A stretch of DNA of 64,000 bases from Pogonophryne albipinna (Eukaryota; Chordata; Actinopteri; Perciformes; Artedidraconidae), in contig JAPTMU010000112.1 of the NCBI GenBank assembly GCA_028583405.1, positions 547,783 to 611,782 of the forward strand, read 5' to 3'. Position numbers and translations under genes: made by a program. Position 1 is the first letter of the stretch. Each line of letters starts with the position of its first letter. Under the pieces are notes generated by a model that searched no databases, was not told the DNA's origin, and saw only the letters and a list, made by a program, of their open reading frames with translations. This document shows positions 1-51,694 of the stretch, piece after piece.

Positions 1-585
1 AAAAATATCTTATTTAGGTTTTAATAGTGATAACTAAGTTTCACTCTGTGGGGGGCAAAAGACGCATCGTTAATCACCTGGATAAAGGACTCTTTAAAGC
101 AGAGACATGGTGACCCGCATACCTGATTATCAGCAGGAGAGGACTCTTTAAAGTAAATACATTATAGGGTTAAAATAAGATATATATGTGGTGGAATTAG
201 TTTAAAACAGTCACCTTACACTTTTTTAGTTCTCCTCTCTAAATTAGATGTAAGTCTTTTTTAAATGATTAGTGTTAATTAAGGGCTATTGTTATTTTTG
301 GTTTATAAGGGGATAGTAGTTCAACTTTTAAAAATTGCACAGGATCATTCTAAGAAGAGTGAGAGGGCTAATGAACCAGCACCATACCTCCTCTATGCAT
401 TTTCTTGACCTGTATCTGATCTTGAAAAACTCTGGTAAGTACTTTTTATTTTATAATATCATGTAATTATTAAATGTTGTTTTTTTGGTAGGGGTTAAAC
501 TAGTATATTATGTGGATAGTATATTATTAGATACTTAAAAATGTTATGTTTTTTCTGTTTACAGTAGAGACCCTGTGTGCTGAAA
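1..585 (+). repeat. Left unique terminal inverted repeat arm
   Basis: Non-satellite sequence that pairs almost base for base with 8782-9366 in reverse complement. It contains a run of G in GTGGGGGGCAAAAG, an AT-rich tract, a TATAAG at about 305 and a GT-AG intron-like segment at 435-564. The two arms differ by scattered substitutions and one-base indels, for example AGCAGGAGAGG against the complement of CCTCTCTTGC. The pair is therefore old enough to have diverged slightly, or it is not fully homogenised. Confidence 0.85.
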
Positions 586-716
586 TCTACTCAAACAGAG
601 TACTTCATGGTAGTGGTCAGATTTTAAACACAAAAGTGTATCTTTCAGTAACTTTCTCAGAGAATTTAAGCATAAATCTGTCAAATGTTCAAAACAGCCT
701 TGTTTCACTGAAATAG
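371..716 (+). other. Putative two-exon mini-ORF in the arm, reading into the satellite
   Basis: An ATG at 371 opens 21 codons and reaches a strong donor, CTG|GTAAGTAC, at 434/435. A pyrimidine-rich tract and acceptor TTTTTTCTGTTTACAG ends at 564. Joining 371-434 to 565-713 keeps one frame for 71 codons, to a TAG at 714, with exon 2 entering the first satellite monomer. The right arm has the same ATG (complement at 8997) and the same splice signals in mirror image. The peptide is not recognised. It could be a real spliced transcript of the element or chance; the conserved frame and consensus sites are the only support. Confidence 0.3.
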
Positions 717-2309
717 CCTCAAAATCACAAACTGCCATTAAGAGTCAGATGCTTGACGAAATCTACTAAAACAAAGTACTCATTATCTACTTTTCAGCTT
801 TTATACACAAAAGTGTATCTTTCAGTAACTTTCTCAGAGAATTTAAGCATAAATCTGTCAAATGTTCAAAACAGCCTTCACTGAAATAGCGTCAAAATCA
901 CAAATTGCCATTAAGAGTCAGATTCTTAACGAATTATACTGACATAAAGTACTTCATTATCTACTTTTCAGCTTTTAAACACAAAAGTGTATCTTTCAGT
1001 AACTTTCTGAGAGAATTAAGCATAAATCTGGCAAATGTTCAAAACAGCCTTGTTTCACTGAAATAGCCGCAAAATCACAAACTGCCATTAAGAGTCAGAT
1101 GCTTGACGAAATCTACTAAAACAAAGTACTTCATTATCTCCTTTTCAGCTTTTATACACAAAAGTGTATCTTTCAGTAACTTTCTCAGAGAATTTAAGCA
1201 TAAATCTGTCAAATGTTCAAAACAGCCTTGTTTCACTGAAATAGCCTCAAAATGACAAAACTGCCATTAAGAGTGAGAATCCTAACGAAATCTACTCAAA
1301 CAGAGTACTTCATGGTAGTGGTCAGCTTTTAAACACAAAAGTGTATCTTTCAGTAACTTTCTGAGAGAATTTAAGCATAAATCTGTCAAATGTTCAAAAC
1401 AGCCTTCACTGAAATAGCGTCAAAATGACAAACTGCCATTAAGAGTCAGATGCTCGACGAAATCTACTAAAACAGAGTACTTCATGGTAGTGGTCAGCTT
1501 TTATACACAAAGTGTATCTTTCAGTAACTTTCTCAGAGAATTTAAACATAAATCTGTCAAATGTACAGCCTTGTTTCACTGAAATAGCCTCAAAATGACA
1601 AACTGCCATTAAGAGTCAGAATCCTTACAAAATCTACTCAAACAGAGTACTTCATGGTAGTGGTCAGCTTTTTAAACACAAAAATGTATCTTTTCAGTAA
1701 CTTTCTCAGAGAATTTAAGCATAAATCTGTCAAATGTTCAAAACAGCCTTGTTTCACTGAAATAGCCTCAAAATGACAAACTGCCAATAAGAGTCAGATT
1801 CTTAACGAAATCTACTGACACAAAGTACTTCATTATCTACGTTTCAGATTTAATACACAAAAGTGTATCTTTCAGTAACTTTCTCAGAGAATTTAAACAT
1901 AAATCTGTCAAATGTTCAAAACAGCCTTGTTTCACTGAAATAGCCTCAAAATGACAAACTGCCATTAAGAGTCAGATGCTCGACGAAATCTACTAAAACA
2001 GAGTACTTCATGGTAGTGGTCAGCTTTTAAACACAAAAGTGTATCTTTCCGTAACTTTCTGAGAGAATTAAGCATAAATCAGTCAAATGTTCAAAACGGC
2101 CTTCACTGAAATAGACTCAAAATCACAAACTGCCATTAAGGGTCAGAATCCTAACGAAATCTACTCAAACAGAGTACTTCATGGTAGTGGTCAGCTTTTA
2201 AACACAAAAGTGTATCTTTCAGTAACTTTCTGAGAGAATTTAAGCATAAATCTGTCAAATGTTCAAAACAGCCTTGTTTCACTGAAATAGCGTCAAAATC
2301 ACAAACTGG

Positions 2310-2402
2310 CTGAAACTATACAGTGAATTGGAGAAATTACAGCACAGAGTTTTCTACTACGACACAGATAGTATAATCTATGTGACGAGACAGGGGCAGT
2401 CT
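2310..2402 (+). pseudogene. Polymerase-B motif C fragment, copy 1
   Basis: The frame from 2310 reads about 30 codons resembling the segment just before and through motif C of family-B DNA polymerases, including the metal-binding YYDTDS. It starts abruptly after the satellite word CACAAACTG and runs straight back into satellite at CCAGTACTTTCATGG, closing at a TAG after about 37 codons. It cannot encode an enzyme. It is identical in extent to the copy 758 bp downstream, so it was duplicated with the satellite block. Confidence 0.75.
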
Positions 2403-3067
2403 CCAGTACTTTCATGGTAGTGGTCAGCTTTTTTAAATACAAAAGTGTATCTTTCAGTAACTTTTTGAGAGAATTACGCATAAATCTGTCAAATGTTCAA
2501 AACAGCCTTGTTTCACTGAAATAGCCTCAAAATGACAAACTGCCATTAAGAGTCAGATGCTTGACGAAATCTCCTGACACAGAGTACTTTCATGGTAGTG
2601 GTCAGCTTTTAAACACAAAAGTGTATCTTTCAGTAACTTTCTGAGAGAATTAAGCATAAATCTGTCAAATGTTCAAAACAGCCTTGTTTCACTGAAATAG
2701 CCTCAAAATCACAAACTGCCAATAAGAGTCAGATGCTTGACGAAATCTCCTGACACAGAGTACTTTCATGGTAGTGGTCAGCTTTTAAACACAAAAGTGT
2801 ATCTTTCGGTAACTTTCTGAGAGAATTAAGCATAAATCAGTCAAATGTTCAAAACGGCCTTCACTGAAATAGACTCAAAATCACAAACTGCCATTAAGGG
2901 TCAGAATCCTAACGAAATCTACTCAAACAGAGTACTTCATGGTAGTGGTCAGCTTTTAAACACAAAAGTGTATCTTTCAGTAACTTTCTGAGAGAATTTA
3001 AGCATAAATCTGTCAAATGTTCAAAACAGCCTTGTTTCACTGAAATAGCGTCAAAATCACAAACTGG

Positions 3068-3160
3068 CTGAAACTATAGAGTGAATTGGAGAAATTACAG
3101 CACAGAGTTTTCTACTACGACACAGATAGTATAATCTATGTGACGAGACAGGGGCAGTCT
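3068..3160 (+). pseudogene. Polymerase-B motif C fragment, copy 2
   Basis: Duplicate of the fragment at 2310, carried by the 758-bp block. One difference was noticed (ACTATAGAG for ACTATACAG). The YYDTDS codons are intact but isolated within satellite, with satellite on both sides and no extended reading frame. Confidence 0.75.
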
Positions 3161-3917
3161 CCAGTACTTTCATGGTAGTGGTCAGCTTTTTTAAATACAA
3201 AAGTGTATCTTTCAGTAACTTTTTGAGAGAATTACGCATAAATCTGTCAAATGTTCAAAACAGCCTTGTTTCACTGAAATAGCCTCAAAATGACAAACTG
3301 CCATTAAGAGTCAGATGCTTGACGAAATCTCCTGACACAGAGTACTTTCATGGTAGTGGTCAGCTTTTAAACACAAAAGTGTATCTTTCAGTAACTTTCT
3401 GAGAGAATTAAGCATAAATCTGTCAAATGTTCAAAACAGCCTTGTTTCACTGAAATAGCCTCAAAATCACAAACTGCCAATAAGAGTCAGATGCTTGACG
3501 AAATCTCCTGACACAGAGTACTTTCATGGTAGTGGTCAGCTTTTAAACACAAAAGTGTATCTTTCGGTAACTTTCTGAGAGAATTAAGCATAAATCTGTC
3601 AAATGTTCAAAACAGCCTTCACTGAAATAGCCTCAAAATCACAAAACTGCCATTAAGAGTCAGATTCTTAACGAAATCTACTGACACAAAGTACTTCATT
3701 ATCTACTTTTCAGCTTTTTAAAAAAAGAAAAGTGTATCTTTCGGTAACTTTTTGAGAGAATTAAGCATACATTTGTCAAATGGTCAAAACAGCCTTCACT
3801 GAAATAGCCTCAAAATGACAAACTGCCATTAAGAGTCAGATGCTTGACGAAATCTAATAAAACAGAGTACTTTCATGGTAGTGGCCAGCTTTTTAAAAAG
3901 ACAAGTGTATCTTTCGG

Positions 3918-4118
3918 CTGAAACTGTACAGTGAATTGGAGAAATTACAGCACAGAGTTTTCTACTACGACACAGATAGTATAATCTATGTGACAAGACG
4001 GGGGAGACTCCACTGCCCATGGAGGTTTATCTGGGGGATCCCTAAAAGTTATGCTTACCAGACCAAAAATCAAAAAAGGTTGTGATGCGTGTGAAAGGGG
4101 TTACACAAAACGTGAAAA
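3918..4118 (+). pseudogene. Polymerase-B fragment at the centre of the palindrome, copy 3 (longest)
   Basis: The frame from 3918 reads into motif C, with YYDTDS at 3963-3980, and continues past it. About 25 codons later come residues like the P-K-x-Y-A-Y block that follows motif C in protein-primed and viral-type polymerases. The frame then breaks (TGA). In another frame a V-x-G-x-T-x-N block matches the next conserved stretch. Relative to intact polymerases there is a frameshift, and the spacer after motif C is shortened. The flanks are satellite in opposite orientations, so this fragment marks the strand switch. It is a dead remnant, but its greater length suggests it is the source of the two shorter copies. 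Assignment to a Polinton/Maverick-like source rather than another family-B polymerase is inference. Confidence 0.75.
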
Positions 4119-7100
4119 CAAGGCTGTTTTGAACATTTGACAGATTTATGCTTAATTCTCTCAAAAAAGTTACCGAAAGATACACTTTTCTTTTTAAAAA
4201 GCTGGCCACTACGATGAAAGTACTCTGTTTTATTAGATTTTGTCAAGCATCTGTCTCTTAATGGCAGTTTGTCATTTTGAGGCTATTTCAGTGAAGGCTG
4301 TTTTGACCATTTGACAAATGTATGCTTAATTCTCTCAGAAAGATACTGAAAGATACACTTTTGTGTTTAAAAGCTGACCACTACCATGAAGTACTCTGTT
4401 TGAGTAGATTTCGTTAGGATTCTGACTCTTAATGGCAGTTTGTGATTTTGAGGCTATTTCAGTGAAACAAGGCTGTTTTGAACATTTGACAGATTTATGC
4501 TTAAATTCTCTGAGAAAGTTACTGAAAGATACACTTTTGTGTATAAAAGCTGAACAAGTAGATAATGAAGTACTTTGTGTCAGTAGATTTCGTTAAGAAT
4601 CTGACTCTTAATGGCAGTTTGTGATTTTGAGGCTAGTTCAGTGAAGGCCGTTTTGAACATTTGACTGATTTATGCTTAATTCTCTCAGAAAGTTACTGAA
4701 AGATACACTTTTGTGTTTAAAAAGCTGACCACTACCATGAAGTACTCTGTTTTAGTAGATTTCGTCAAGCATCTGACTCTTAATGGCAGTTTGTCATTTT
4801 GAGGCTATTTCAGTGAAACAAGGCCGTTTTGAACATTTGACTGATTTATGCTTAATTCTCTCAGAAAGTTACTGAAAGATACACTTTTGTGTTTAAAAGC
4901 TGACCACTACCATGAAAAGCACTCTGTTTTAGTAGATTTCATCAAGCATCTGACTCTTAATGGCAGTTTGTTATTTTGAGGCTATTTCAGTGAAGGCTGT
5001 TTTGAACATTTGACAGATTTATGCTTAAATTCTCTCAGAAAGTTACTGAAAGATACACTTTTGTGTATAAAAGCTGAAAAGTAGATAATGAAGTACTTTG
5101 TGTCAGTAGATTTTGTTAAGAATCTGACTCTTAATGGCAGTTTGTGATTTTGAGGCTATTTCAGTGAAACAAGGCTGTTTTGAACATTTGACAGATTTAT
5201 GCTTAAATTCTCTGAGAAAGTTACTGAAAGATACACTTTTGTGTATAAAAGCTTAAAAGTAGAAAATTAAGTATTTTGTGTCAGTAGATTTCGTTAAGAA
5301 TCTGACTCTTAATGGCAGTTTGTCATTTTGAGGCTATTCCAGTGAAACAAGGCTGTTTTGAACATTTGACAGATTTATGCTTAAATTCTCTGAGAAAGTT
5401 ACTGAAAAGATACATTTTTGTGTTTAAAAAGCTGACCACTACCATGAAGTACTCTGTTTGAGTAGATTTTGTTAGGATTCGGACTCTTAATGGCAGTTTG
5501 TCATTTTGAGGCTATTTCAGTGAAACAAGGCTGTTTTGAACATTTGACAGATTTATGTTTAAATTCTCTGAGAAAGTTACTGAAAGATACACTTTGTGTA
5601 TAAAAGCTGAAAAAGTAGATAATGAAGTACTTTGTGTCAGTAGATTTCGTTAAGAATCTGACTCTTAATGGCAGTTTGTGATTTTGAGGCTATTTCATTG
5701 AAGGCTGTTTTGAACATTTGACAGATTTATTCTTAAATTCCCTGAGAAAGTTACTGAAAGATACACTTTTGTGTTTAAAAGCTGACCACTACCATGAAGT
5801 ACTTTGTTTTATTAGATTTTGTTAGGATTCTGAATCTTAATGGCAGTTTGTCATTTTGAGGCTATTTCAGTGAAACAAGGCTGTTTTGAACATTTGACAG
5901 ATTTATGTTTAAATTCTCTGAGATAGTTACTGAAAGATACACTTTGTGTATAAAAGCTGAAAAAGTAGATAATGAAGTACTTTGTTTTAGTAGATTTCGT
6001 TAAGAATCTGACTCTTAATGGCAGTTTGTGATTTTAAGGCTATTTCAGTGAAACAAGGCTGTTTTGAAACATTTGACAGATTTATGCTTAAATTCTCTGA
6101 GAAAGTTACTGAAAGATACACTTTTGTGTATAAAAGCTGAAAAGTAGATAATGATGTACTTTGTGTCAGTAGATGTCGTTAAGAATCTGACTCTTAATTG
6201 CAGTTTGTGATTTTGAGGCTATTTCAGTGAAGGCTGTTTTGAACATTTGACAGATTTATGCTTAAATTCTCTCAGAAAGTTACTGAAAGATACACTTTTG
6301 TGTTTAAAAGCTGACCACTACCATGAAAAGCACTCTGTTTTAGTAGATTTCGTCAAGCATCTGACTCTTAATGGCAGTTTGTCATTTTGACGCTATTTCA
6401 GTGAAGGCTGTTTTGAACATTTGACAGATTTATGCTTAAATTCTCTCAGAAAGTTACTGAATGATACACTTTTGTGTTTAAAAGCTGACCACTACCATGA
6501 AGTACTCTGTTTGAGTAGATTTCGTTAGGATTCTGACTGTTAATGGCAGTTTTGTCATTTTGAGGCTATTTCAGTGAAACAATGCTGTTTTGAACATTTG
6601 ACGGATTTATGCTTAAATTCTCTGAGAAAGTTACTGAAATATACACTTTTGTGTATAAAAGCTGAAAAGTAGATAATGAAGTACTTTGTTTTAGTAGATT
6701 TCGTCAAGCATCGGACTCTTAATGGCAGTGTGTGATTTTGCGGCTATTTCAGTGAAACAAGGCTGTTTTGAACATTTGCCAGATTTATGCTTAATTCTCT
6801 GAGAAAGTTACTGAAAAGATACATTTTTGTGTTTAAAAAGCTGACCACTACCATGAAGTACTCTGTTTGAGTAGATTTTGTTAGGATTCTGACTCTTAAT
6901 GGCAGTTTGTCATTCTGAGGCTATTTCAGTGAAACAAGGCTGTTTTGAACATTTGACAGATTTATGTTTAAATTCTCTGAGAAAGTTACTGAAAGATAAA
7001 CTTTGTGTATAAAAGCTGAAAAAGTAGAAAATGAAGTACTTTGTGTCAGTAGATTTCGTTAAGAATCTGACTCTTAATGGCAGTTTGTAATTTTGAGGCT

Positions 7101-8781
7101 ATTTCACTGAAGGCTGTTTTGAACATTTGACAGATTTATGCTTAAATTCTCTGAGAAAGTTACTGAAAGATACACTTTTGTGTTTAAAAGGTGACCACTA
7201 CCATGAAGTACTCTGTTGTATTAGATTTCGTTAGGATTCTGACTCTTAATGGCAGTTTGTCATTTTGAGGCTATTTCAGTGAAACAAGGCTGTACATTTG
7301 ACAGATTTATGTTTAAATTCTCAGAGAAAGTTACTGAAAGATACACTTTGTGTATAAAAGCTGAAAAGGTAGATAATGAAGTACTTTGTTTTAGTAGATT
7401 TCGCTAAGAATCTGACTCTTAATGGCAGTTTGTGATTTTAAGGCTATTTCAGTGAAACAAGGCTGTTTTGAAACTTTGACAGATTTATGCTTAAATTCTC
7501 TGAGAAAGTTACTGAAAGAAGCTGAAGAGTAGATAATGAAGTACTTTGTGTGAGTAGATTTCGTTAAGAATCTGACTCTTAATGGCAGTTTGTCATTTTG
7601 AGGCTATTTCAGTGAAGGCTGTTTTGAACATTTGACTGATTTATGCTTAATTCTCTCAGAAAGTTACTGAAAGATACACTTTTGTGTATAAAAGCTGAAA
7701 AGTAGACAATGAAGTACTTTGTGTCAGTAGATTTCGTTAAGAATCTGACTCTTAATGGCAGTTTGTGATTTTGAGGCTATTTCAGTGAAGGCTGTTTTGA
7801 ACATTTGACTGATTTATGCTTAATTCTCTCAGAAAGTTACTGAAAGATACACTTTTGTGTTTAAAAGCTGACCACTACCATGAAAAGCACTCTGTTTTAG
7901 TAGATTTCGTCAAGCATCTGACTCTTAATGGCAGTTTGTCATTTTGACGCTATTTCAGTGAAGGCTGTTTTGAACATTTGACAGATTTATGCTTAAATTC
8001 TCTCAGAAAGTTACTGAAAGACACACTTTTGTGTTTAAAAGCTGACCACTACCATGAAGTACTCTGTTTGAGTAGATTTCGTTAGGATTCTGACTCTTAA
8101 TGGCAGTTTTGTCATTTTGAGGCTATTTCAGTGAAACAAGGCTGTTTTGAACATTTGACAGATTTATGCTTAAATTCTCTGAGAAAGTTACTGAAAGATA
8201 CACTTTTGTGTATAAAAGCTGAAAAGGAGATAATGAAGTACTTTGTTTTAGTAGATTTCGTCAAGCATCTGACTCTTAATGGCAGTTTGTGATTTTGCGG
8301 CTATTTCAGTGAAACAAGGCTGTTTTGAACATTTGCCAGATTTATGCTTAATTCTCTGAGAAAGTTACTGAAAGATACACTTTTGTGTTTAAAAGCTGAA
8401 AAGTAGATAATGAAGTACTTTATGTCAGTAGAATTCGTTAAGAATCTGACTCTTAATGGCAGTTTGTGATTTTGACGCTATTTCAGTGAAGGCTGTTTTG
8501 AACATTTGACAGATTTATGCTTAAATTCTCTGAGAAAGTTACTGAAAGATACACTTTTGTGTATAAAAGCTGAAAAGTAGATAATGAAGTACTTTGTTTT
8601 AGTAGATTTCGTCAAGCATCTGGATCTTAATGGCAGTTTGTGATTTTGAGGCTATTTCAGTGAAACAAGGCTGTTTTGAACATTTGACAGATTTATGCTT
8701 AAATTCACTGAGAAAGTTACTGAAAGATACACTTTTGTGTTTAAAATCTGACCACTACCATGAAGTACTCTGTTTGAGTAG
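4119..8781 (-). repeat. Satellite array, inverted orientation (~177-bp monomers)
   Basis: About 26-27 monomers of the same satellite as at 586-3917, reverse-complemented (TCTGACTCTTAATGGCAGTTTG, GAACATTTGACAGATTTATGC, AAAGATACACTTTTGTGT). Both subtypes are present. No polymerase fragment was found in this arm. It is about 1.3 kb longer than the left array, so the arms have expanded unequally. Confidence 0.95.
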
Positions 8782-9366
8782 ATTTCAGCACACAGGGTCT
8801 CTACTGTAAACAGAAAAAACATAACATTTTTAAGTATCTAATAATATGCTATCCACATAATATACTAGTTTAACCCCTACCAAAAAAACAACATTTAATA
8901 ATTACATGATATTATAAAATAAAAAGTACTTACCAGAGTTTTTCAAGATCAGATACAGGTCAAGAAAATGCATAGAGGAGGTATGGTGCTGGCTCATTAG
9001 CCCTCTCACTCTTCTTAGAATGATCCTGTACAATTTTTAAAAGTTGAACTCCTATCCCCTTATAAACCAAAATAACAATAGCCCTTAATTAACACTAATC
9101 ATTTAAAAAAAACTTACATCTAATTTAGAGAGGACAACTAAAAAAGTGTAAGGTGACTGTTTTAAACTAATTCCACCACATATATATCTTATTTTAACCC
9201 TATAATGTATTTACTTTAAAGAGTCCTCTCTTGCTGATAATCAGGTATGCGGGTCACCATGTTTCTGCTTTAAAGAGTCCTTTATCCAGGTGATTAACGA
9301 TGCGTCTTTTGCCCCCCACAGAGTGAAACTTAGTTATCACTATTAAAACCTAAATAAGATATTTTT
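8782..9366 (-). repeat. Right unique terminal inverted repeat arm
   Basis: Reverse complement of 1-585, including the mirrored intron-like segment and the CCCCCCACAGAGTGAAACTTAG block. Complementarity ends at 9366, where the right flank continues TTAATTAATATGAATACCC. This is the probable element boundary. Confidence 0.85.
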
Positions 9367-9675
<309 letters not shown>

Positions 9676-9679
9676 ATTG

Positions 9680-9990
9680 TTCTTGAAGGTAGGGGTAGGT
9701 CATTTTGGAGAAACCAGCTCGAGTGAGCTAGAATTAGAAAATACACAACCGGGGGGGGGGGAAATCTGCCACTTCCTCATAGAGCCCCTCCTCCAGCACA
9801 CATGAACGCGCTCACATGACCAAAAGAGGGCACGAGATAAGTTTGTGCACAGATCTCTGGCTGTAGGCGTCTGACTCCCGCACAGCGGCGGCATTCGTTT
9901 CTTGACTGGCGCTCCGGACGGATGGCGGTAAGTTGTCACAGGCGTCTCTTGGCCATTTTTCTTTTTTGCAAGGTGACTTGGTAAGTGGAA
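9680..9990 (+). mobile_element. TTAA-type MITE, diverged partial copy
   Basis: GGTAGGGGTAGGTCATTTTGGAGAAACCAGCTCGAGTGAGCTAGAA matches the 5' end of the MITE that is complete at 56723-57065. The copy includes the GGGGGGGGGG-containing variant and the GCACGAGATAAGTTTGTGCACAGAT block, then diverges. The left end lacks a clean TTAA next to the terminus, and the right end is not recognisable. To 10173 the sequence is C/G-rich and unassigned. Confidence 0.65.
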
Positions 9991-10173
9991 ATTACTGTCT
10001 TTTTAATTAGTTTTGAGCATATTTCTATTTTCACCTAATTCCACCCCCCACTATCTGCGGGCCTCATAGCCAAAAGGAAGGAGGTGGAGAAAGGGGGGAG
10101 AGGCCTGGGCTGGGAGGGGGCTGGACAGTCTCACGCATAACTTCAAAGAGACACCTAGATTAACATCAAAGGC

Positions 10174-10213
10174 TTATAACACACCAGTGTGAAATCACAC
10201 TGGTGTGTTATAA
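10174..10213. repeat. Near-perfect 40-bp hairpin
   Basis: TTATAACACACCAGTGTGA, two A residues, then its exact reverse complement: 19-bp arms with a 2-base spacer. No TE termini were recognised around it, although ACATCAAAGG occurs on both sides. Confidence 0.9.
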
Positions 10214-10249
10214 CACCTCACATCAAAGGGCAAAACATCAAAGGCTAAT

Positions 10250-10660
10250 TACACTGAACAAAAATATAAACGCAACACTTTTGTTTTTGCTCCCATTTTT
10301 TATGAGATGAACTCAAAGATCTAAAACATTTTCTATATACACAAAATAACCATTTCTCTCAAATATTGTTCACAAATCTGAAAAAATCTGTGATAGTGAG
10401 CACTTCTCCTTTGCCGAGATAATCCATCCCACCTCACAGGTGTGGCATATCAAGATGCTGATTAGACAGCATGATTATTGCACAGGTTTGTCTTAGGCTA
10501 GCCACAATAAAAGGCCACTCTGAAACGTGCATTTTTGCTTTATTGGGGGGGTCTGAAAACCAGGCAGTATCTGGTTTGACGGGTAGGGGTAGGGGTAGGG
10601 TTAGGGGTAGGGTTAGGGTTAGGGTAATGTTGTGAATCGAGTGGCCTGTGTTCGTCGTCC
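10250..10660 (+). mobile_element. Tc1/mariner-like remnant
   Basis: It starts TA|CACTGAACAAAAATATAAACGCAACAC, the classic terminus of a widespread fish Tc1-like family. About 290 bp of the typical 5' region follow (CTTCTCCTTTGCCGAGATAATCCATCCCACC, GCCACAATAAAAGGCCACTCTGAAA). The transposase region is missing. The sequence jumps to an inner 3' block (GGGGGGGTCTGAAAACCAGGCAGTATCTGG) and then to a telomere-like repeat. It is an internally deleted, dead copy. Confidence 0.85.
10581..10626. repeat. Short telomere-like (GGGTTA/GGGGTA)n tract
   Basis: Seven to eight imperfect units of GGGTAG/GGGTTAG inside the Tc1-like remnant. At 46 bp it is too short for a telomere. It is an interstitial telomere-like or simple-repeat expansion. 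The following ~210 bases to 10839 hold no recognised feature. Confidence 0.8.
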
Positions 10661-10839
10661 ATAACATACGCCTGCCCATACCATAACCCCACCTGTTATA
10701 ACACCTCACCCCTCACATCTCGAACTCTCGGGTCTCGAACAATGGGAGGCGGGACTTAGCTCATTTGCATAATCGGGGGCGTGTCACCTGTCACTTTATA
10801 TGCATACTAATGAGACGAAAGCGGTATCATTAATACTAC

Positions 10840-12480
10840 TGTGGTCATATAACTGGGGATTCAAAATGTCAGAAAGCAAGTCATGCTACATGATATTTAT
10901 AAACAAACGCAAGATTGATGGCCAACAGCTAACACTATATGATCGTCCAATGACAAAGGTGAATGAGTTCAAATACCTAGGACTGTGGTTTGATAGCAAA
11001 TATACATGGAAAATGCATATTAATCAAGTGGAAACAAAATGCAAAAAAGTATTAAATCTATTACGAGCTGTAGCTGGATGCAACTGGGGCGCAGACAAAC
11101 AAGCATTAATAGACATTTACAGATCAATGAAGAGGTCCACAATAGACTATGATTGTATAGTGTATGGAGCAGCAGCAAAAACATCGCTTTTAAAAACAGA
11201 TAAAATACAATATAAAGCATTGCGGCTGTGTATTGGAGCGATAAAGTCATCCCCTATCAATGCAGTTCTGATAGAAGCAGGAGAGACACCTCTGGAGATC
11301 ATAAAAGAGAAACTTGCTCTGTCATACTGGGTCAGGCTACAAGGAAGTGGAGAAGAAAATATTTCAAACAGAATACTACAGGATTGCTGGGAATATGGAA
11401 AGTTCCAGGGGCGTGGGTTTGGCTGGACGAGTAAGGAGAGAACGAGGGCATATGGAGTGGAGACCATCACGTTTGCCAAAGCAACCCCATTTAGCAGTGT
11501 TCCCCCATGGCTCTTCCCAGAAGCTAAAATAGATATGAGTATTGTAGAAAGGAAAAAAGAGTGGCAAATAAATGAAGTGGGAATTAAAACAAGTATGTAC
11601 CTGAACGAAAAGTACTACAATTACCTAAACATGTACACAGATGGTTCTAAGAACAAGGAAGAGTGTGTTGGAGTTGGTATATACATCCCAGACTTTAAAA
11701 TATCGATTTCAAAAAGAGCGTCTGATCAATTATCAGTGTATACAGCAGAAATGCTTGCTGTAATAATAGGATTACAGTGGGTTGAAGAGGTCAGACCAGA
11801 TAGGGTGGTGATATGCACAGATTCATTGTCCATATTAAAAAGCACACAATCAACAACAACTGTCTGAGAAGACATTCTCATAGAACTTAACCACAGCCTG
11901 TTAAGACTTCACAGAGGAGGTAGATCTGCAGTTCTGCTGGGTGCCTGCACATGAGGGGGTGAAAGGGAACGAGTGTGCTGATAAATGAGCAAAAAGTGCA
12001 CTACAAAAGGAAATAACATTACCAGTTCAACTTGGAAAAGGAGAAGGAAAAGCAATCATTAAGAAGAAAGGGATGGAGATCTAGCAGAAAAGGTGGGAGG
12101 AAGACCAGAACGGCAAAGACTATCACAAAGTACAAAAGACAATTACAATTAATATTTATAAAGAAAGAAACAGAAGGGAGGAAATCACGATAGCTAGACT
12201 CAGAATAAATCACACGACTTTGAATGGTACGCTGTATATCATGGGGAAAAGTGACAGTAACAAGTGTGGGAACTGTGGAGTAAAAGAAGATGTAGAACAT
12301 ATCTTGTTACATTGTGACATCTATGAAGCGGAAAGAGAAAAACTAAAGGCTGAAGGTTTAGAGGCAGAGAGGGAATGGAGTGTGGTTGGTGTTTTGGGAA
12401 AAAAAGCAGAGGGAGTAAGAGCTACCAGAAAGGCACTGTTTACATTCTTGAGTGAAACTGGGGTAGGAAAAATAATTTAA
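10840..12480 (+). pseudogene. LINE ORF2 C-terminal part: RT thumb, RNase H, CCHC finger
   Basis: An open frame of about 340 codons from the truncation point to a TGA at 11865 covers the RT thumb (KYLGLWFD) and the start of RNase H. The RNase H residues seen are Asp in YTDGSK (~11634), Glu in AEMLA (~11749) and Asp in TDS (~11818). The frame is then broken. The rest of RNase H (WVPAHEG...NECADK, ~11935) lies in a shifted frame, followed by in-frame stops at about 11985 and 12082. An 86-codon frame to 12480 carries CGNC-x7-HILLHC, the C-terminal zinc finger of I/R1-type LINEs. In life this would be part of a cytoplasmic/nuclear RNP reverse-transcribing its own RNA at a target nick. This copy is dead: no RT core and several stops. 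Confidence 0.9.
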
Positions 12481-12663
12481 CAGGAAAGAACATAGATTTT
12501 TATTTTTGTTTTATGTATTTAATGTTTTTGTTGATTTATTTTGATTAGATCATAGGTTAAAGAGTGGAATGATATGGTGATTCATACTCATGTACAGGAG
12601 GTGGCGGTATGCACCTTTTAAGTTGTTTGTAATCCGCCAAAAACGAGAGAAGAAGAAGAAGAA
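10840..12663 (+). mobile_element. RNase-H LINE, 3' portion (copy A)
   Basis: 5'-truncated copy of the I-group-like LINE whose 5' part lies at 49940-53655. Homology starts near GTGGTCATATAACTGGGG, just after the RT motif C region. It contains the RT thumb, RNase H, a C-terminal CCHC finger and a 3' UTR ending in a (GAA)n tail (ACGAGAGAAGAAGAAGAAGAAG). The tail lies 317 bp upstream of the zinc-finger exon-1 ATG. The same tail junction occurs at 18226 and 58802, so this is one insertion copied by duplication. Confidence 0.9.
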
Positions 12664-12980
12664 GATGCGCATTGCAAATCGGGCATTCAGATCGGGTAGT
12701 CACACTGGGTCCAGGTGGCGTCTCGTCGCTACGTTTCTCTCTCTCTGTGTTCCTAAGAAAGCGTTTGTGAGCTCCAGCTCTACTGATCCATCATCTGTGT
12801 GTTTGGATAAACCTCCGAATGGATGTGTGCTCTTTTTTCTGGAGCGTTTACCTCGGACTATAGGAGCTAGCTTAGCATGCTAGCTGGAAACACGTTGGCA
12901 ACACTAGTCAGATTGAGAGTTTGATGGAGAGAGAAACGGTGTGTTTAACGGAGTTTGCAGGAAACGGTGATCTAGTAAAC
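12664..12980 (+). promoter_or_regulatory. Probable promoter/5' UTR of zinc-finger exon 1, copy A
   Basis: The 317 bp between the LINE tail and the ATG are GC-richer than the surroundings. They include GGGTCCAGGTGGCGTCTCGTCGCTACG, a pyrimidine run (TTTCTCTCTCTCTGTG) and an AGCTAGC-TTAGCAT-GCTAGCT inverted repeat near 12867. No TATA box is obvious. The block is almost identical in all three copies. Calling it a promoter rests on position only. An in-frame upstream ATG at 12924 could give a longer N-terminus. Confidence 0.5.
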
Positions 12981-13167
12981 ATGAGTAAAGTCCAAATGCT
13001 GCTTTCGTTGAAGAAGCAGCGACTCACTGCTGAAGAGATATTTGCTCTGTTTGAAATAACGATAGCAGAGTACGAGGAGGAGCTGTCTCGTTCCAAAGAG
13101 GAGAACAAGAGACTCCAGAAACTACTGGACGCTGTTTTACAGCCTCAGCTTCGGATACACAGAGCAG
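12981..13167 (+). CDS. C2H2 zinc-finger gene, first coding exon, copy A
   Basis: Encodes 62 codons plus one base, starting MSKVQMLLSLKKQRLTAEEI. It has an acidic, coiled-coil-like helix (IAEYEEELSRSKEENKRLQK) and ends RIHRA plus G. The exon closes at a consensus donor, GCAG|GTCTGT. I recognise this as the N-terminal module of a large teleost zinc-finger family, in which the next residues are D-V-Q-Q-L-x-V-V-K-E-E. Exactly that follows at 35397 and the phase matches. The ATG at 12981 is chosen because family members start at MSKVQ; an in-frame ATG at 12924 would add 19 residues. The helix probably mediates dimerisation or co-factor binding (inference). The duplicate at 18544 is nearer to exon 2, so this copy may be an alternative or unused first exon. 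Confidence 0.75.
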
Positions 13168-13202
13168 GTCTGTTCCCTTTACTCTTAATTAACACTTTAA
13201 AC

Positions 13203-13232
13203 CAGGGGTGTCCAAACTACGGCCCGGGGGCC
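13203..13232 (+). mobile_element. hAT-like left terminus interrupted by the long-TIR element
   Basis: CAGGGGTGTCCAAACTACGGCCCGGGGGCC is a typical fish hAT-MITE start. Its continuation (GGCCCTCAGCTAATTC...) resumes at 15648, after the long-TIR insertion. The right end of the hAT was not identified. The same arrangement occurs in copies B and C. Confidence 0.6.
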
Positions 13233-15647
13233 GGTGTTACCGAATAAGATGTGGGCCGAACAACTGGTGATATTCTATAACGGTATAGGCAGATGTATCA
13301 GGGGCGTGGCCTTTGTCGAATAACCAGGAAATACACATTTCGATCGCTTCTTCTGTCGTTTGCATAAATCTTTTGGTATATTTGGCTCCATAGGAACACT
13401 TTGATGCACTTTCAGTACCAGTGTGTGAGGTTGTGGTTGCGATGCCGATATGCGGACGCGTACAGCGAGGACTTCAAAAAGACACGAGGTGACCAAAACA
13501 TTGCAAGCTTGAATAAATCGTTTAAACCGTTTATTTTTGCCAGACTTATTACTGAATATCATTCGTAATGTGATACCAAGTCCATCTGAGACCTGTGTAT
13601 ACCTTCAGACAGCCTACAAGTGAAGCACACGTTGTTTACTCGCAGTTTGAAAGCAGCTTGGAGCTGTGATCCGCCCAAGATAAACTGTGATACGACTTCT
13701 GTGGCTTGTTCTTGTTGTCAGTCTTATATTTGTATCATATATCGTTATTAATATGATATCGAGTTGATTTGAGACCCGTTTATACTTTCATACCATCTGT
13801 TAGTGAAACATACAGTCTGTCTGAGTTGTTTACACCCATCTCCAACGCAGCGTGGAGAGCTGTGGTAAACAGTGATTAAAGATTAAACTGTGATACGAGT
13901 TCTGTGGTTATCAACCAGCGATCATGTTTAATATTAAAGACTACACACATGTATCCCCCTTATCAAAACGATATTCTGCACTTTGCCACACTTATCCAGA
14001 TCACATTTGACTGTTTACTCGTTTTGCAAAGACAGAACCAGAAGTGTCATTGCTACATTTGCAGGGATATTTAGAATTTAAAATGCTGCTTGATCGTTAA
14101 TTTTGTTCTCGACAAACAATATTATGAATCCACTATTCAAAAATATTATTCAATGTCCGTCGACATAAAAATAACAAAAAAGTTCATGCTGTACTCAAAC
14201 CCGAGTCCCAATAGCAAAAATCCCTCGTGCCATGCGTGCATGAGTGAGCCACGGATCAATACGATGTAATTTATCATCCCAGTTTATTTTCTCACATTAA
14301 CATTGTTAAAAGAGTCGGAACAATTCAACCCGACCATCTTTTATAATGTGAGCGAATGTATGCACACTTTAAGCCATATAATATAAATATTACAGTTGGC
14401 ATTTGCTTTGAAATAGTATATACTGACTGAGCATCATTAAGACCCACCGAGATCATATCCTAGTTCATCAGCCTGCAAGCCTACATTACGTTGTGATAAG
14501 TGGTCATTTTACGTATTATTCTAGTGCACACATTAAGTTCACATATGCAAATCAGGCCATATGTTTCGTTATGTAGTAGCTATAATCATCACCTGTCATG
14601 GAAATACAACAATAACAAGGAATTCATATTAATATTACCAAGTTACACAGAAATAGATAAAACACATGAGAACAAAGACCACATAGATAAACGCATACAC
14701 GTTAAGTTAGAAACGAAAACATGTTTACAACAGTGTGAAAAAGTATGAATATATGTGTTTCTAGTTCTCAACGTAGCCTATGTGAGTACCCTCGTCATTC
14801 GGTGTTGCTGTATCGAAATTTAACCAAGTAAACAGTCACATCTTATCTGGATAAGTGTGGCAAAGTGCAGAATACCGTTTTGATAAGGGATCAATGTGTG
14901 TAGTCTTTAATATTAAAGATGATCGCTGGTTGATAGCCACAGAACTCGTATCACAGTTTAATCTGAGCGGATCACTGTTTACCACAGCTCTCCATGCTGC
15001 GTTGGAGATGGGTGTAAACAACTCAGACAGACTGTATGTTTCACTAACAGACGGTATGAAAGTATAAACGGGTCTCAAATCAACTCGACATCATATTAAT
15101 AACGATACATGAAATGTAAGACTGACAACAAGAACAACAAGCCACAGAAGTCGTATCACAGTTTATCCTGGGCGGATCACAGCTCCACAGCTGAAGACTT
15201 CTCCACGCTGCTTTCAAACTGTGAGTAAACAACGTGTGCTTCACTTGTAGGCTGTCTGAAGGTATACACAGGTCTCAGATGGACTTGGTATCACATTAAG
15301 AATGATATTCAGTAATAAGTCTGGGAAAAATAAATGGTTTAAATGATTTATTCAAGCTTGCAATGTTTTGAACACACATCCCCAGTCACCTCATGTGTCT
15401 TTTTGTAGTCCTCGCTGTACGCGTCCGCATATCGGCATCGCAACCACAACCTCACACACTGGTACTGAATGTGCATCAAAGTGTTCCTATGGAGCCAAAT
15501 ATACCAAAACATTTATGTAAACGACAGAAGAAGCGATCGAAATGTGTATTTCCTGGTTATTCGACAAAGGCCACGCCCCTGATACATCTGCCTATACTGT
15601 TATAGAATATCACCAGTTGTTCGGCCCACATCTTATTCGGTAACACC
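13233..15647. mobile_element. 2.4-kb element with ~790-bp terminal inverted repeats (copy A)
   Basis: GGTGTTACCGAATAAGATGTGGGCC at the left pairs with the reverse complement ending GGTAACACC at 15647. Arms of about 790 bp (to ~14022 and from ~14820) enclose an ~800-bp AT-rich middle. Each arm contains an internal ~183-bp tandem duplication (GAGACC-x-GT-x-TATAC-x-TTCA-x-AC blocks near 13590 and 13770). Short frames of 70-95 codons in the arms show no known domain. No transposase was recognised, so the superfamily is unassigned. It sits 65 bp downstream of the exon-1 donor, within the intron, so a transcript would contain a long hairpin. Confidence 0.85.
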
Positions 15648-16047
15648 GGCCCTCAGCTAATTCAAAAAGTATTTGGGAAATATGGCCCACAAATGAAACG
15701 TGCTTTTCTCATATTGTACTTCTTAAATATATATGTTCAGCCATATTACACACTAGTATTCATGTGTTAATAAGCTCACTTTTAAAATAAATTCAGTCAA
15801 TTCATGTTGATAAAATGTTCTAACAAATCTTAGTTGATGAAAAAAAGCCTAATAACTTATTAACACAACAAGCTTGAAATAGATCCTTCATATTTCATGT
15901 TATTATAATCACTTCTGTTTTTAAGGGATGAGCTGCCAACACGATAAATGAAACCCGATAGAAAGCTGTGATGTTGGCTGTTTTTTTCTTAAAGCATATT
16001 AATGTATTAAGCCTAATTTAGCTACATTTTGCTAACTTATAACTTAA
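15648..16047. other. Intronic repeat debris
   Basis: Continues the interrupted hAT-like sequence (ATTTGGGAAATATGGCCCACAAATGAAACG), then AT-rich sequence. No gene was seen. Confidence 0.5.
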
Positions 16048-16370
16048 AGGTGGGGTAGGTAATTTTGGAGAAACCAGCTCGAGTGCGCTAGAATTTGAAA
16101 ATACACAGCCGGAAAAAATCTGCCACTTCCTTACAGAGCCCCTCCTCCAACACACATGAACGTGCACATGACCAATGAGGGCACGAGATAAGTTTGTGCA
16201 CAGATGGAAGGCTGACCGGCAGGTAGGCCATCCAGTTATTTTAGCCGGGCCGGCTAATTGGTCGTGCTTTTTACAGTAGGCTACTACGGCTTCCACAGAT
16301 GACATTTTTTATGGATTTTTTGACAAAGCACTTCATTGCTATCGGGGTGTTGAGAGCATTGAGAGTTTTT
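16048..16370 (+). mobile_element. TTAA-type MITE, 3'-degraded (copy A)
   Basis: AGGTGGGGTAGGTAATTTTGGAGAAACC directly follows a TTAA at 16044-16047. The body matches the complete element at 56723-57065, but the right terminus is lost and an internal block (AAGATATT...CCATGGAATATAAC) is deleted relative to copy C. TTAA target use is the signature of piggyBac-type transposases (family knowledge); assignment is inference. Confidence 0.8.
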
Positions 16371-17103
16371 TGCACACTTTTATTTTAAACAAATAAGGTT
16401 ATTTTAACAGTAGTAGGCCTATTCCCTTTACAGAGTAGCATTCCAAATATTCCTTGTCAATCTCAACGCCTGGAACAGATTACAAATGTCCATGTAAGAG
16501 TTTGGTACCTTTCTCCATGTTTCTGTCCCCCCCACTTATGTTCTGTGTTGGTTCATGTGAGCACTGCAGCAAAATGCTCATTTTGTTAACACTTTCAACT
16601 CTTTTTCAAGCTGAAAAATAATTTCTTTGATTTAAAGACAAGTGAATACATTACATATAAGGAATTAATAAATTAATTATCATGCAATTATATTGACCAA
16701 AAAGTAATCTACAAAATAAATGTGGAAAATATTTAATTCATAAAATAATAAATGTTTCCTTTTGCAGTTGTTCCACTAATTATCTCTCTTCCTTTTTTTA
16801 ATGTTCCCCATTATAAAGGTATTTTTTAATGATTAATTCATTGTTAAATGTATGTATTTATTTTTTCACCTTGAGACAAGAAATACAAACTTACATTTTG
16901 GGTGTATTCAGATTGCGGGTTCCCTCTTCTATCATCATTTATAGAAGTGCAACCTTAAACATGTACACAGTAAAATGCGACACTGACAATAATCAAGAAA
17001 CGTCATAAATCAAACACTGACAGGGAACATTTTATTGCAGTATCATTACTTTTACATAAGAAAGTGCTGTACTTGTTTCTGAGAATACTTGTAAGTACTT
17101 TTA
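16371..17103. other. AT-rich intronic sequence, no gene
   Basis: Includes a poly-C stretch, A/T runs and several imperfect repeats. No coding signal or recognised TE terminus. Conserved in all three copies of the unit. Confidence 0.5.
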
Positions 17104-17106
17104 CTT

Positions 17107-17407
17107 AAAGGGGACCTAGTATGCAAAATGCACTTTTTGATGTATTTTACACATAAAGATGTGTCCCTGGTGTGTAAGGAGACTCAAATATTCAGAAAAT
17201 ACAACCCTCTCTCTTTTCCTCCTTACCCACATCTCAACAAAAAAAAACGGGGGTGCAAACGAGCAGATCCAGGATTTGGCTCATATGACGTCATTGGTGA
17301 AATGTGGCACACTTGACACGTCCCAACCTATCGTCTCCAGCACACGTCCCAACCTAGCATCTCCGGCACACGTGACACGTCCCAACTTATCGTCTCCGTA
17401 TACAGTC
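17107..17407 (+). mobile_element. Fish MITE with AAAGGGGACC start (copy A, partial)
   Basis: AAAGGGGACCTAGTATGCAAAATGCACTTTTTGATGT is the terminus of a very common teleost MITE, next to TTAA. The copy contains four imperfect ACACGTCCCAAC repeats. It is cut at 17416 by the hAT insertion and, in this copy, by the duplication breakpoint. In copy B the same element resumes after 33776 (GAATCCCCTCTCGC...) and continues to about 35100. Confidence 0.7.
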
Positions 17408-17415
17408 GTCTAGCT

Positions 17416-17584
17416 CAGTAGTTCCCAACCGTTTTCAGTCGGGCAATTACACAAGGGGGTTGTGTAATTGGAAATATTTTCGAGCCCCCCCTAATCCGGT
17501 TCCCACGAGATTGGTAGAATTAATTGTATATAGTTGAACAAACATTACATTTTCTCTGCTAATAATAACAAGACAAAAAGATCC
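17416..17584 (+). mobile_element. hAT left end, truncated by the duplication junction
   Basis: CAGTAGTTCCCAACCGTTTTCAGTCGGGC follows GTCTAGCT (17408-17415), which is the left target duplication of the hAT that is complete in copy B (22980-33768). Here the element ends after 169 bp where unit 2 begins. Confidence 0.85.
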
Positions 17585-18226
17585 AACATTACCAGTTCAA
17601 CTTGGAAAAGGAGAAGGAAAAGCAATCATTAAGAAGAAAGGGATGGAGATCTAGCAGAAAAGGTGGGAGGAAGACCAGAACGGCAAAGACTATCACAAAA
17701 GACAATTACAATTAATATTTATAAAGAAAGAAACAGAAGGGAGGAAATCACGATAGCTAGACTCAGAATAAATCACACGACTTTGAATGGTACGCTGTAT
17801 ATCATGGGGAAAAGTGACAGTAACAAGTGTGGGAACTGTGGAGTAAAAGAAGATGTAGAACATATCTTGTTACATTGTGACATCTATGAAGCGGAAAGAG
17901 AAAAACTAAAGGCTGAAGGTTTAGAGGCAGAGAGGGAATGGAGTGTGGTTGGTGTTTTGGGAAAAAAAGCAGAGGGAGTAAGAGCTACCAGAAAGGCACT
18001 GTTTACATTCTTGAGTGAAACTGGGGTAGGAAAAATAATTTAACAGGAAAGAACATAGATTTTTATTTTTGTTTTATGTATTTAATGTTTTTGTTGATTT
18101 ATTTTGATTAGATCATAGGTTAAAGAGTGGAATGATATGGTGATTCATACTCATGTACAGGAGGTGGCGGTATGCACCTTTTAAGTTGTTTGCAATCCGC
18201 CAAAAACGAGAGAAGAAGAAGAAGAA
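17585..18226 (+). pseudogene. RNase-H LINE 3' end (copy B)
   Basis: Duplicate of 12015-12663. It contains the CCHC finger frame (CGNC...HILLHC, to 18043), the 3' UTR and the (GAA)n tail. The upstream RNase H is absent because the duplication breakpoint lies inside the LINE. Confidence 0.9.
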
Positions 18227-18543
18227 GATGCGCATTGCAAATCGGGCATTCAGATCGGGTCGTCACACTGGGTCCAGGTGGCGTCTCGTCGCTACGTTTC
18301 TCTCTCTCTGTGTTCCTAAGAAAGCGTTTGTGAGCTCCAGCTCTACTGATCCATCATCTGTGTGTTTGGATAAACCTCCGAATGGATGTGTGCTCTTTTT
18401 TCTGGAGCGTTTACCTCGGACTATAGGAGCTAGCTTAGCATGCTAGCTGGAAACACGTTGGCAACACTAGTCAGATTGAGAGTTTGATGGAGAGAGAAAC
18501 GGTGTGTTTAACGGAGTTTGCAGGAAACGGTGATCTAGTAAAC

Positions 18544-18730
18544 ATGAGTAAAGTCCAAATGCTGCTTTCGTTGAAGAAGCAGCGACTCACTGCTGAAGAG
18601 ATATTTGCTCTGTTTGAAATAACGATAGCAGAGTACGAGGAGGAGCTGTCTCGTTCCAAAGAGGAGAACAAGAGACTCCAGAAACTACTGGACGCTGTTT
18701 TACAGCCTCAGCTTCGGATACACAGAGCAG
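18544..18730 (+). CDS. C2H2 zinc-finger gene, first coding exon, copy B
   Basis: Identical in coding sequence to copy A: 62 codons plus one base, ending at GCAG|GTCTGT. This is the first exon nearest upstream of exon 2 (35397) on the same strand. The phase-1 junction gives G|AC, Asp, restoring the family sequence H-R-A-D-V-Q-Q-L. The predicted protein is about 481 residues (62 + 1 + 418). The intron would be 16,666 bp, nearly all transposon. In the same frame an upstream ATG at 18487 adds 19 residues. Upstream sequence (18227-18543) is almost identical to copy A, so both promoters may work. The product is expected in the nucleus as a DNA-binding regulator (family inference). Confidence 0.8.
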
Positions 18731-18795
18731 GTCTGTTCCCTTTACTCTTAATTAACACTTTAAACCAGGGGTGTCCAAACTACGGCCCGGGGGCC

Positions 18796-21211
18796 GGTGT
18801 TACCGAATAAGATGTGGGCCGAACAACTGGTGATATTCTATAACGGTATAGGCAGATGTATCAGGGGCGTGGCCTTTGTCGAATAACCAGGAAATACACA
18901 TTTCGATCGCTTCTTCTGTCGTTTGCATAAATCTTTTGGTATATTTGGCTCCATAGGAACACTTTGATGCACTTTCAGTACCAGTGTGTGAGGTTGTGGT
19001 TGCGATGCCGATATGCGGACGCGTACAGCGAGGACTTCAAAAAGACACGAGGTGACCAAAACATTGCAAGCTTGAATAAATCGTTTAAACCGTTTATTTT
19101 TGCCAGACTTATTACTGAATATCATTCGTAATGTGATACCAAGTCCATCTGAGACCTGTGTATACCTTCAGACAGCCTACAAGTGAAGCACACGTTGTTT
19201 ACTCGCAGTTTGAAAGCAGCTTGGAGCTGTGATCCGCCCAAGATAAACTGTGATACGACTTCTGTGGCTTGTTCTTGTTGTCAGTCTTATATTTGTATCA
19301 TATATCGTTATTAATATGATATCGAGTTGATTTGAGACCCGTTTATACTTTCATACCATCTGTTAGTGAAACATACAGTCTGTCTGAGTTGTTTACACCC
19401 ATCTCCAACGCAGCGTGGAGAGCTGTGGTAAACAGTGATTAAAGATTAAACTGTGATAAGAGTTCTGTGGTTATCAACCAGCGATCATGTTTAATATTAA
19501 AGACTACACACATGTATCCCCCTTATCAAAACGATATTCTGCACTTTGCCACACTTATCCAGATCACATTTGACTGTTTACTCGTTTTGCAAAGACAGAA
19601 CCAGAAGTGTCATTGCTACATTTGCAGGGATATTTAGAATTTAAAATGCTGCTTGATCGTTAATTTTGTTCTCGACAAACAATATTATGAATCCACTATT
19701 CAAAAATATTATTCAATGTCCGTCGACATAAAAATAACAAAAAAGTTCATGCTGTACTCAAACCCGAGTCCCAATAGCAAAAATCCCTCGTGCCATGCGC
19801 GTTATGAGTGAGCCACGGATCAATACGATGTAATTTATCATCCCAGTTTATTTTCTCACATTAACATTGTTAAAAGAGTCGGAACAATTCAACCCGACCA
19901 TCTTTTATAATGTGAGCGAATGTATGCACACTTTAAGCCATATAATATAAATATTACAGTTGGCATTTGCTTTGAAATAGTATATACTGACTGAGCATCA
20001 TTAAGACCCACCGAGATCATATCCTAGTTCATCAGCCTGCGAGCCTACATTACGTTGTGATAAGTGGTCATTTTACGTATTATTCTAGTGCACACATTAA
20101 GTTCACATATGCAAATCAGGCCATATGTTTCGTTATGTAGTAGCTATAATCATCACCTGTCATGGAAATACAACAATAACAAGGAATTCATATTAATATT
20201 ACCAAGTTACACAGAAATAGATAAAACACATGAGAACAAAGACCACATAGATAAACGCATACACGTTAAGTTAGAAACGAAAACATGTTTACAACAGTGT
20301 GAAAAAGTATGAATATATGTGTTTCTAGTTCTCAACGTAGCCTATGTGAGTACCCTCGTCATTCGGTGTTGCTGTATCGAAATTTAACCAAGTAAACAGT
20401 CACATCTTATCTGGATAAGTGTGGCAAAGTGCAGAATACCGTTTTGATAAGGGATCAATGTGTGTAGTCTTTAATATTAAAGATGATCGCTGGTTGATAG
20501 CCACAGAACTCGTATCACAGTTTAATCTGAGCGGATCACTGTTTACCACAGCTCTCCATGCTGCGTTGGAGATGGGTGTAAACAACTCAGACAGACTGTA
20601 TGTTTCACTAACAGACGGTATGAAAGTATAAACGGGTCTCAAATCAACTCGACATCATATTAATAACGATACATGAAATGTAAGACTGACAACAAGAACA
20701 ACAAGCCACAGAAGTCGTATCACAGTTTATCCTGGGCGGATCACAGCTCCACAGCTGAAGACTTCTCCACGCTGCTTTCAAACTGTGAGTAAACAACGTG
20801 TGCTTCACTTGTAGGCTGTCTGAAGGTATACACAGGTCTCAGATGGACTTGGTATCACATTAAGAATGATATTCAGTAATAAGTCTGGGAAAAATAAATG
20901 GTTTAAATGATTTATTCAAGCTTGCAATGTTTTGAACACACATCCCCAGTCACCTCATGTGTCTTTTTGTAGTCCTCGCTGTACGCGTCCGCATATCGGC
21001 ATCGCAACCACAACCTCACACACTGGTACTGAATGTGCATCAAAGTGTTCCTATGGAGCCAAATATACCAAAACATTTATGTAAACGACAGAAGAAGCGA
21101 TCGAAATGTGTATTTCCTGGTTATTCGACAAAGGCCACGCCCCTGATACATCTGCCTATACTGTTATAGAATATCACCAGTTGTTCGGCCCACATCTTAT
21201 TCGGTAACACC
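18796..21211. mobile_element. 2.4-kb long-TIR element (copy B)
   Basis: Copy of 13233-15647 within unit 2. It has the same GGTGTTACC...GGTAACACC ends and ~790-bp arms, and begins 65 bp after the exon-1 donor. It differs from copy A by a handful of bases, for example GATAAGAGTT for GATACGAGTT and a small change at CATGCGCGTTATGAG. Confidence 0.85.
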
Positions 21212-51535: not shown

Positions 51536-51536
51536 A

Positions 51537-51690: not shown

Positions 51691-51694
51691 CACG

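Follow-up and report, generated by a model that had tools for sequence, protein, structure and literature searches.

A 64,000-nucleotide stretch of the Pogonophryne albipinna genome (GenBank assembly GCA_028583405.1, contig JAPTMU010000112.1, positions 547,783 to 611,782 of the forward strand; hereafter the window) opens inside a palindromic element whose arms are made mostly of satellite DNA. The element is one copy of a family that is almost certainly derived from Polinton (Maverick) elements. The palindromes of this family formed repeatedly, about at least two different axes, and one axis, located in the polymerase B gene (polB), is a snap-back junction common to dispersed copies. Snap-back of the polymerase on a Polinton strand, followed by integration in trans, would probably account for them. 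Coordinates are window positions, with window base 1 at C850:547783 (contigs are denoted by C and a number) and negative positions to the left of the window on the contig. The set that was read, completely or in part, comprises 15 elements, E1 being the window copy; 14 of them (E1 and E3-E15) are palindromic.

Polinton termini and dispersed copies

Both termini were located in five elements, E3 (C10), E4 (C6), E5 (C7), E10 (C11) and E15 (C1). All start with AGTAGT at both ends, and all five are bounded by perfect 6-bp target duplications (ACTGTC, GGCATG, GATGGT, GGTACT and TGAAGC). At the right end of the window copy the same terminus, ...ACTACT, closes the element at 10840 and is followed by GTGGTC. 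Vertebrate Mavericks are described in an excerpt of PMC8097293 as having (AGT)2//(ACT)2 or (AG)3//(CT)3 ends and perfect 6-bp duplications; the palindromic family resembles them in its AGT-repeat ends, its duplications and its long terminal inverted repeats.

The arms and the polB pieces of the family match a gene-bearing Polinton of the same genome. This copy, on C23, has AGTAGT ends and the duplication GTTATG. Four of its ten scanned frames match Pfam and six do not; the matches are polB (PF03175), an A32-like ATPase, an adenovirus protease (22.5 bits, cut-off 21.3) and an rve integrase with a chromodomain. Both arms of E3 match the terminal repeats of the C23 copy. Beyond the repeats they match only its polB side, up to L052 7915 and then in an intron-like stretch at 8361-8474 upstream of polB, while on the integrase side they match the terminal repeat alone. 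A stretch at about 435-563 in the left arm of the window copy is likewise intron-like (GTAAGT..TTTACAG) and related to a stretch upstream of polB in gene-bearing Polintons. At a polB-bearing locus on C11, 90% similarity to the window arm ends at base 585, where the satellite starts, even with the query extended to base 1000. Inward of the satellite, polB resumes in its motif-C region, at L051 position 22, and carries an internal deletion. Most of polB in the arms is replaced by the satellite array. The polB-side origin of the arms was traced in detail on a single pair, the gene-bearing C23 copy and the palindromic E3, and the C11 locus supports it.

Unlike a Polinton/Maverick, the palindromic family has no intact gene, two ends that both resemble the polB side, mirror symmetry and arms composed mostly of satellite. 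Of the conserved Polinton gene set (polB, ATPase, protease, integrase and capsid genes), the window copy holds only polB fragments of ~0.2 kb, and it is therefore a non-autonomous derivative; the window has seven open reading frames (ORFs) of at least 180 amino acids, none of which starts before 10800. The family would thus consist of multi-copy non-autonomous Polintons that need to be moved in trans.

The arms are dispersed through the genome. The arm-satellite junction was found at 179 + 175 sites (up to 2 mismatches; control 0). When neighbouring junctions less than 50 kb apart were compared among 100 of these 354 sites, 25 pairs were convergent ('+-') and one was '++'; no '-+' or '--' pair was seen. 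A first-pass annotation of the window had proposed that a Polinton/Maverick-like element lost its genes as a satellite was amplified in its arms. The Polinton termini, the 6-bp duplications, the terminal repeats related to those of C23 and the many dispersed convergent copies bear this out, and the check that it suggested, for dispersed copies with the same ends and short target duplications, came out positive (dispersed arms; AGTAGT ends and 6-bp duplications in five of five). It was right about the derivation, but the true ends and the shared, repeatedly formed snap-back axes escaped it. Its other proposal, a satellite spreading as a hairpin-ended unit, does not match the structure observed: the satellite is internal and the ends are those of Polintons.

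The structure could also be that of a classical Foldback-type transposon, like Tetris or Galileo, that picked up polB fragments. According to the abstracts of PMC4079207 (Tetris) and PMC3573991 (Galileo), these elements have long terminal inverted repeats with internal tandem repeats and vary in structure among copies, and tandem repeats inside long terminal inverted repeats are found here too. The same abstracts place Galileo in the P superfamily and report that Tetris repeats also seeded satellite arrays. A Foldback element would, however, carry the termini and target duplications of its own superfamily. Instead, the outer terminal repeat is related to that of the gene-bearing Polinton and the duplications are of 6 bp, which makes this origin very improbable. 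The ends, the partner element and the axis of the palindromic family are all Polinton, whereas a snap-back axis within a polymerase gene is not mentioned in the Tetris and Galileo abstracts.

Fold-back axes and mirrored arms

A polymerase-B remnant had been noted at the strand flip of the satellite in the first-pass annotation. It is indeed present (3916-4109), and two further copies of its initial ~98 bases lie at 2308-2405 and 3066-3163. Its translation, LKLYSELEKLQHRVFYYDTDSIIYV, is presumably the motif-C region of polB; the piece is very short, and a Pfam search with it gave nothing above cut-off. At the DNA level the fragment matches polB genes of Polintons in the same genome at 94-100% over 66-106 bp (best rows), and its two pieces match the C23 gene at 94.4% and 88.7%.

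Fourteen centres were fetched, chosen from the 40 best polB-fragment matches of 1329 candidates. All 14 flip at one place, reading ...GATGCGT, a loop of about 19 nt and ACGCATC..., with single-base variants. At this site the C23 polB gene, the sole fetched polB locus to cover it, has a short inverted repeat, ATGCGT..ACGCAC. In type-A copies the palindrome axis is at the 3' end of the central polB fragment, and the type-A junction was found at 36 genome sites (up to 2 mismatches; control 0). Among the palindromic elements, E3, E6 and E8 have the type-A axis, and E5, E7 and E10 have the same loop with the other polB flank. In the window copy the mirror half is absent: ACACAAAACG passes directly into inverted satellite, and the junction ACACAAAACG/TGAAAACAAGG occurs once in the genome (up to 2 mismatches). 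The window copy is read as a family member whose centre lost its mirror half.

A second axis was found in E15 (C1:1823904-1837675; 13,772 bp), the most symmetric copy examined. Its centre is a 160-bp perfect stem with a 28-nt loop, in a sequence other than the polB axis. The arms differ at 8 of 6839 aligned sites (99.88% identical), with 66 gap columns in 7 gaps, one of them of 60 bp. The two 6.9-kb arms hold, as mirror images, a captured 797-bp integrase fragment that is 98.7% identical to the C23 gene. The E15 axis was found at 26 genome sites (up to 3 mismatches; control 0). When the 40 best of 931 candidate loci for the E15 half-centre were inspected, 28 had an adjacent inverted partner, which reached the axis in 23; counts of this kind, taken among the 40 top-scoring candidates, are lower bounds. 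E9 combines a second-axis centre with arms of the window type. The existence of this second multi-copy axis, with the mirrored arms of E15, indicates that palindromes formed more than once and before integration.

The arms of the window copy mirror a passenger of their own. A Tc1-like insert in the right arm has a 96.9% identical counterpart at the corresponding point of the left arm, beyond the window edge; among E2-E14 the insert is present in E2 alone, in one arm. Mirrored passengers together with perfect target duplications imply that mirrored molecules preceded integration. These results also suggest that one arm can be copied onto its partner, and the near-perfect palindrome of E15 suggests recent activity.

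A chromosomal origin, in which the arms were mirrored after integration by recombination of inverted neighbours or by gene conversion between arms, is improbable. Recombination of the arrays does seem to be ongoing, given that satellite arm lengths vary between and within copies, and the complementary 6-bp flanks of E1 and E2 (see below) would suit one insertion split by an inversion. Against it, whole palindromes are bounded by perfect 6-bp duplications, the same axis recurs in dispersed copies and the neighbouring arms are convergent. Near-perfect palindromes are also a familiar artefact of single-molecule reads, but an assembly origin through fold-back reads or misjoins is hardly credible here: neither the differing flanks with perfect 6-bp duplications on both sides nor identical axes at dozens of loci are expected from read artefacts. 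Recombination in the chromosome, a Foldback transposon of the classical kind and misassembly are all poor fits.

The window copy and its satellite

A 9.4-kb palindrome at 1..9366 with unique inverted ends of ~0.58 kb had been reported for this copy. The palindrome and its satellite are confirmed, but not the ends, since the arms run from about -1519 to 10693. The left 585 bases and the right 585 are inverted copies (576 of 586 aligned columns identical; one shuffle gives 309/624), but these stretches are subterminal. Position 1 is the cut of the window inside the left arm, and the bases before it belong to that arm as well. Inverted arm pairs were found at 1-303/9064-9366 (98%), 296-780/8588-9072 (99%) and 780-1482/7885-8587 (99%), and on the contig the inverted match extends outward as far as -1519 and 10693 (98.1% over 1158 bp). 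No left terminus was seen in the 9.5 kb of contig sequence preceding position 1, and GTGGTC on the right is the only flank seen adjoining an end.

Features of the window copy, by window position and strand.
1 to 581, plus strand: left arm, subterminal; the arm continues leftward beyond the window, at least to -1519
582 to 3917, plus strand: satellite array of the left arm, ~176-bp monomers directed inward
2308 to 2405, plus strand: polB piece inside the left array (C23 gene, L051 22-119, 92.9%), belonging to a ~758-bp higher-order repeat
3066 to 3163, plus strand: second copy of the same polB piece (91.8%)
3916 to 4109, plus strand: central polB fragment, two deletion-joined pieces (L051 22-147 and 197-267)
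4116 to 8786, minus strand: satellite array of the right arm, inverted monomers
8787 to 9445, minus strand: right arm, subterminal, inverted copy of the left arm
9446 to 10229, minus strand: inner portion of the right terminal inverted repeat, including (GT)63 at 9548-9673
10230 to 10729, no strand assigned: remnant that we take to be Tc1/mariner-like, replacing about 300 bp of the terminal repeat
10730 to 10840, minus strand: outer end of the right terminal inverted repeat (111 bp), closing with ...ACTACT
10841 to 10846, no strand assigned: GTGGTC, presumably the 6-bp target site duplication on the right side

A telomere-like GGGTTAG/GGGTAG run is present within the Tc1-like insert in both arms, at 10581-10625 and between -1519 and -1400. 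No match was obtained in an Rfam scan over the window or when the window arm was compared with phage records. E2 (C850:452424-462423, L011) ends in GACCAC, the complement of the window flank GTGGTC, and neither E1 nor E2 has a left terminus in the fetched sequence; the two are perhaps parts of a single insertion separated by an inversion of ~90 kb.

The satellite was first described as ~45 monomers that flip strand, in good agreement with a satellite profile run on the 64-kb window. The profile gave 47 matches, 3 of them short, all within 578-8790, with 19 on the plus strand (up to 3936) and 28 on the minus strand (from 4116). The two satellite arms differ in length (about 3.3 and 4.7 kb), and a close rank-by-rank match of monomers is confined to the outer five full ones. 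The strand switch is present in 14 of the 15 fetched elements, the exception, E2, being truncated, and an arm holds between 5 and 45 monomers across the seven elements compared. A 25-base monomer pattern was found at 5658 + 5415 genome sites (control 0). At C1:2923829-2936809, exact monomer matches with a higher-order period form a 13-kb run on one strand, adjoining a type-A axis (2 mismatches) at C1:2937002, so that arms can become far longer than those of the window copy. The mirror arrangement of monomer positions in three C1 clusters was equalled by 4556, 252 and 710 of 20000 random draws, a weak result for the first cluster and a better one for the other two; because the random model takes no account of periodicity, the test is given no weight as proof. 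Near C1:26221811 (L021), the palindromic copy E9 ends against inverted satellite that belongs to another copy, which suggests a nested insertion. Derivation of the satellite from Polinton sequence was considered and rejected, as no similarity was detected, at this sensitivity, by blastn (word size 7) and tblastx against six fetched pieces or by an unfiltered nhmmer search of 22 pieces (best E 3.6).

The rest of the window holds other repeats. A 5.58-kb unit lies in direct tandem at 12003-17587 and 17573-23151 (99.6% identical); from 57981 to 64000, the contig end, runs part of a third copy, which is interrupted. The ORFs at 10800-11867, 39224-41245 and 50521-52959 are presumably pieces of non-LTR (non-long terminal repeat) retrotransposons. 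The ORF at 35411-36655 (414 amino acids) encodes, in 84-bp repeats, an array that we take to be C2H2 zinc fingers.

Origin of the palindromes and its implications

Polintons encode a polymerase B of the protein-primed type, and their replication is protein-primed. During extrachromosomal replication, a strand copied inward from one Polinton end would turn back on itself where it meets a short inverted repeat, and its extension would then run to the start of the same strand. Once copied, this fold-back product would be a palindrome whose two ends are identical and each bear an origin, and gene-bearing Polintons could supply the integrase that inserts it in trans. The satellite would be carried as a passenger, with copy number and centre drifting later. 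Comparable cases are SYREC (symmetric adenovirus type 12-cell DNA recombinant) and snap-back defective genomes known from protein-primed linear DNAs, in which one viral end is duplicated in inverted form around non-viral DNA. One end mirrored about a short inverted repeat is what is seen here, in the same end found twice in E3, in the axes and in the arm identity of E15. SYREC and the snap-back genomes were virus genomes in particles, whereas the palindromes here are integrated and present in many copies in the genome. The polymerase snap-back account fits because the same end occurs twice, the axes lie at short inverted repeats, target duplications are present and the passengers are mirrored, and it is on balance the account that we favour.

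The main rival is break-and-fold-back repair by the host. A broken extrachromosomal Polinton would be resected, its end would anneal to itself at a short inverted repeat and be filled in, and copying of the hairpin-capped half would give the palindrome. The same junction, short stems and loops of ~19-28 nt are predicted, and the use of both flanks of a single polB hairpin is likewise what a break at that point would permit. The product and its later spread would be alike, so that the present data do not distinguish this route from polymerase snap-back; we regard it as rather unlikely, though worth serious attention.

Several observations weigh against polymerase snap-back. The replication intermediate was not seen, protein-primed replication of the palindrome is presumed, and fold-back after a double-strand break in the host would give the same junction. 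The polB axis is shown by only six of the 14 fetched palindromic elements. E1 and E14 retain one polB half, the arrays are joined directly in E4, E12 and E13, E11 has a different centre, and E9 and E15 are built on the second axis; in E9 a satellite piece of 47 bp separates the two halves. Satellite flanks ten of the 14 fetched polB centres on both sides and four on one side, and type B centres need an additional rearrangement. At the second axis, 12 of the 40 best loci have no inverted partner. The arrays differ between the two arms in other copies (7 of 15 elements compared), and the source of the satellite was not found among the Polinton pieces examined. In the 585-bp subterminal region, compared for 24 arms of 14 elements (arms lacking a full 585-bp match were left out), arms within an element are 97.6-99.3% identical (10 pairs), hardly above the mean of 98.1% between elements (266 pairs). 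Therefore, only E15 and the mirrored insert of E1 directly favour copying of one arm onto the other.

Among the literature matches listed, judged by title or abstract opening, none describes a palindromic Polinton, and a phrase search for non-autonomous Polintons gave no match. The oyster satellite CgiSat52 is annotated as DNA/Polinton in a passage of PMC8268682. It resembles the present case as a Polinton-related satellite and differs from it in its 1656-bp unit, and palindromes are not mentioned in that passage.

A wider reading, which we put forward tentatively as a possibility short of an even chance, is that the Polintons of this genome repeatedly shed self-mirroring half-genomes that act as hyperparasites of the gene-bearing element. 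One origin-bearing end, the only one retained, would be doubled by fold-back, symmetry could be renewed by arm copying in later cycles, and captured DNA (satellite, integrase fragment, Tc1-like insert) would be doubled and spread. The shared fold-back axes would be fossil traces of one stage of Polinton replication that, to our knowledge, has not been observed directly before. They give a testable handle on how Polinton DNA is copied and on how defective derivatives may parasitise Polintons. They bear, too, on how a satellite, as the cargo of a DNA element, can reach a large number of locations; 11,073 monomer sites were counted. If the hyperparasite reading is true, the family would stand for a palindromic way of life of its own among virus-like elements and for a means of spreading satellite DNA over a genome.

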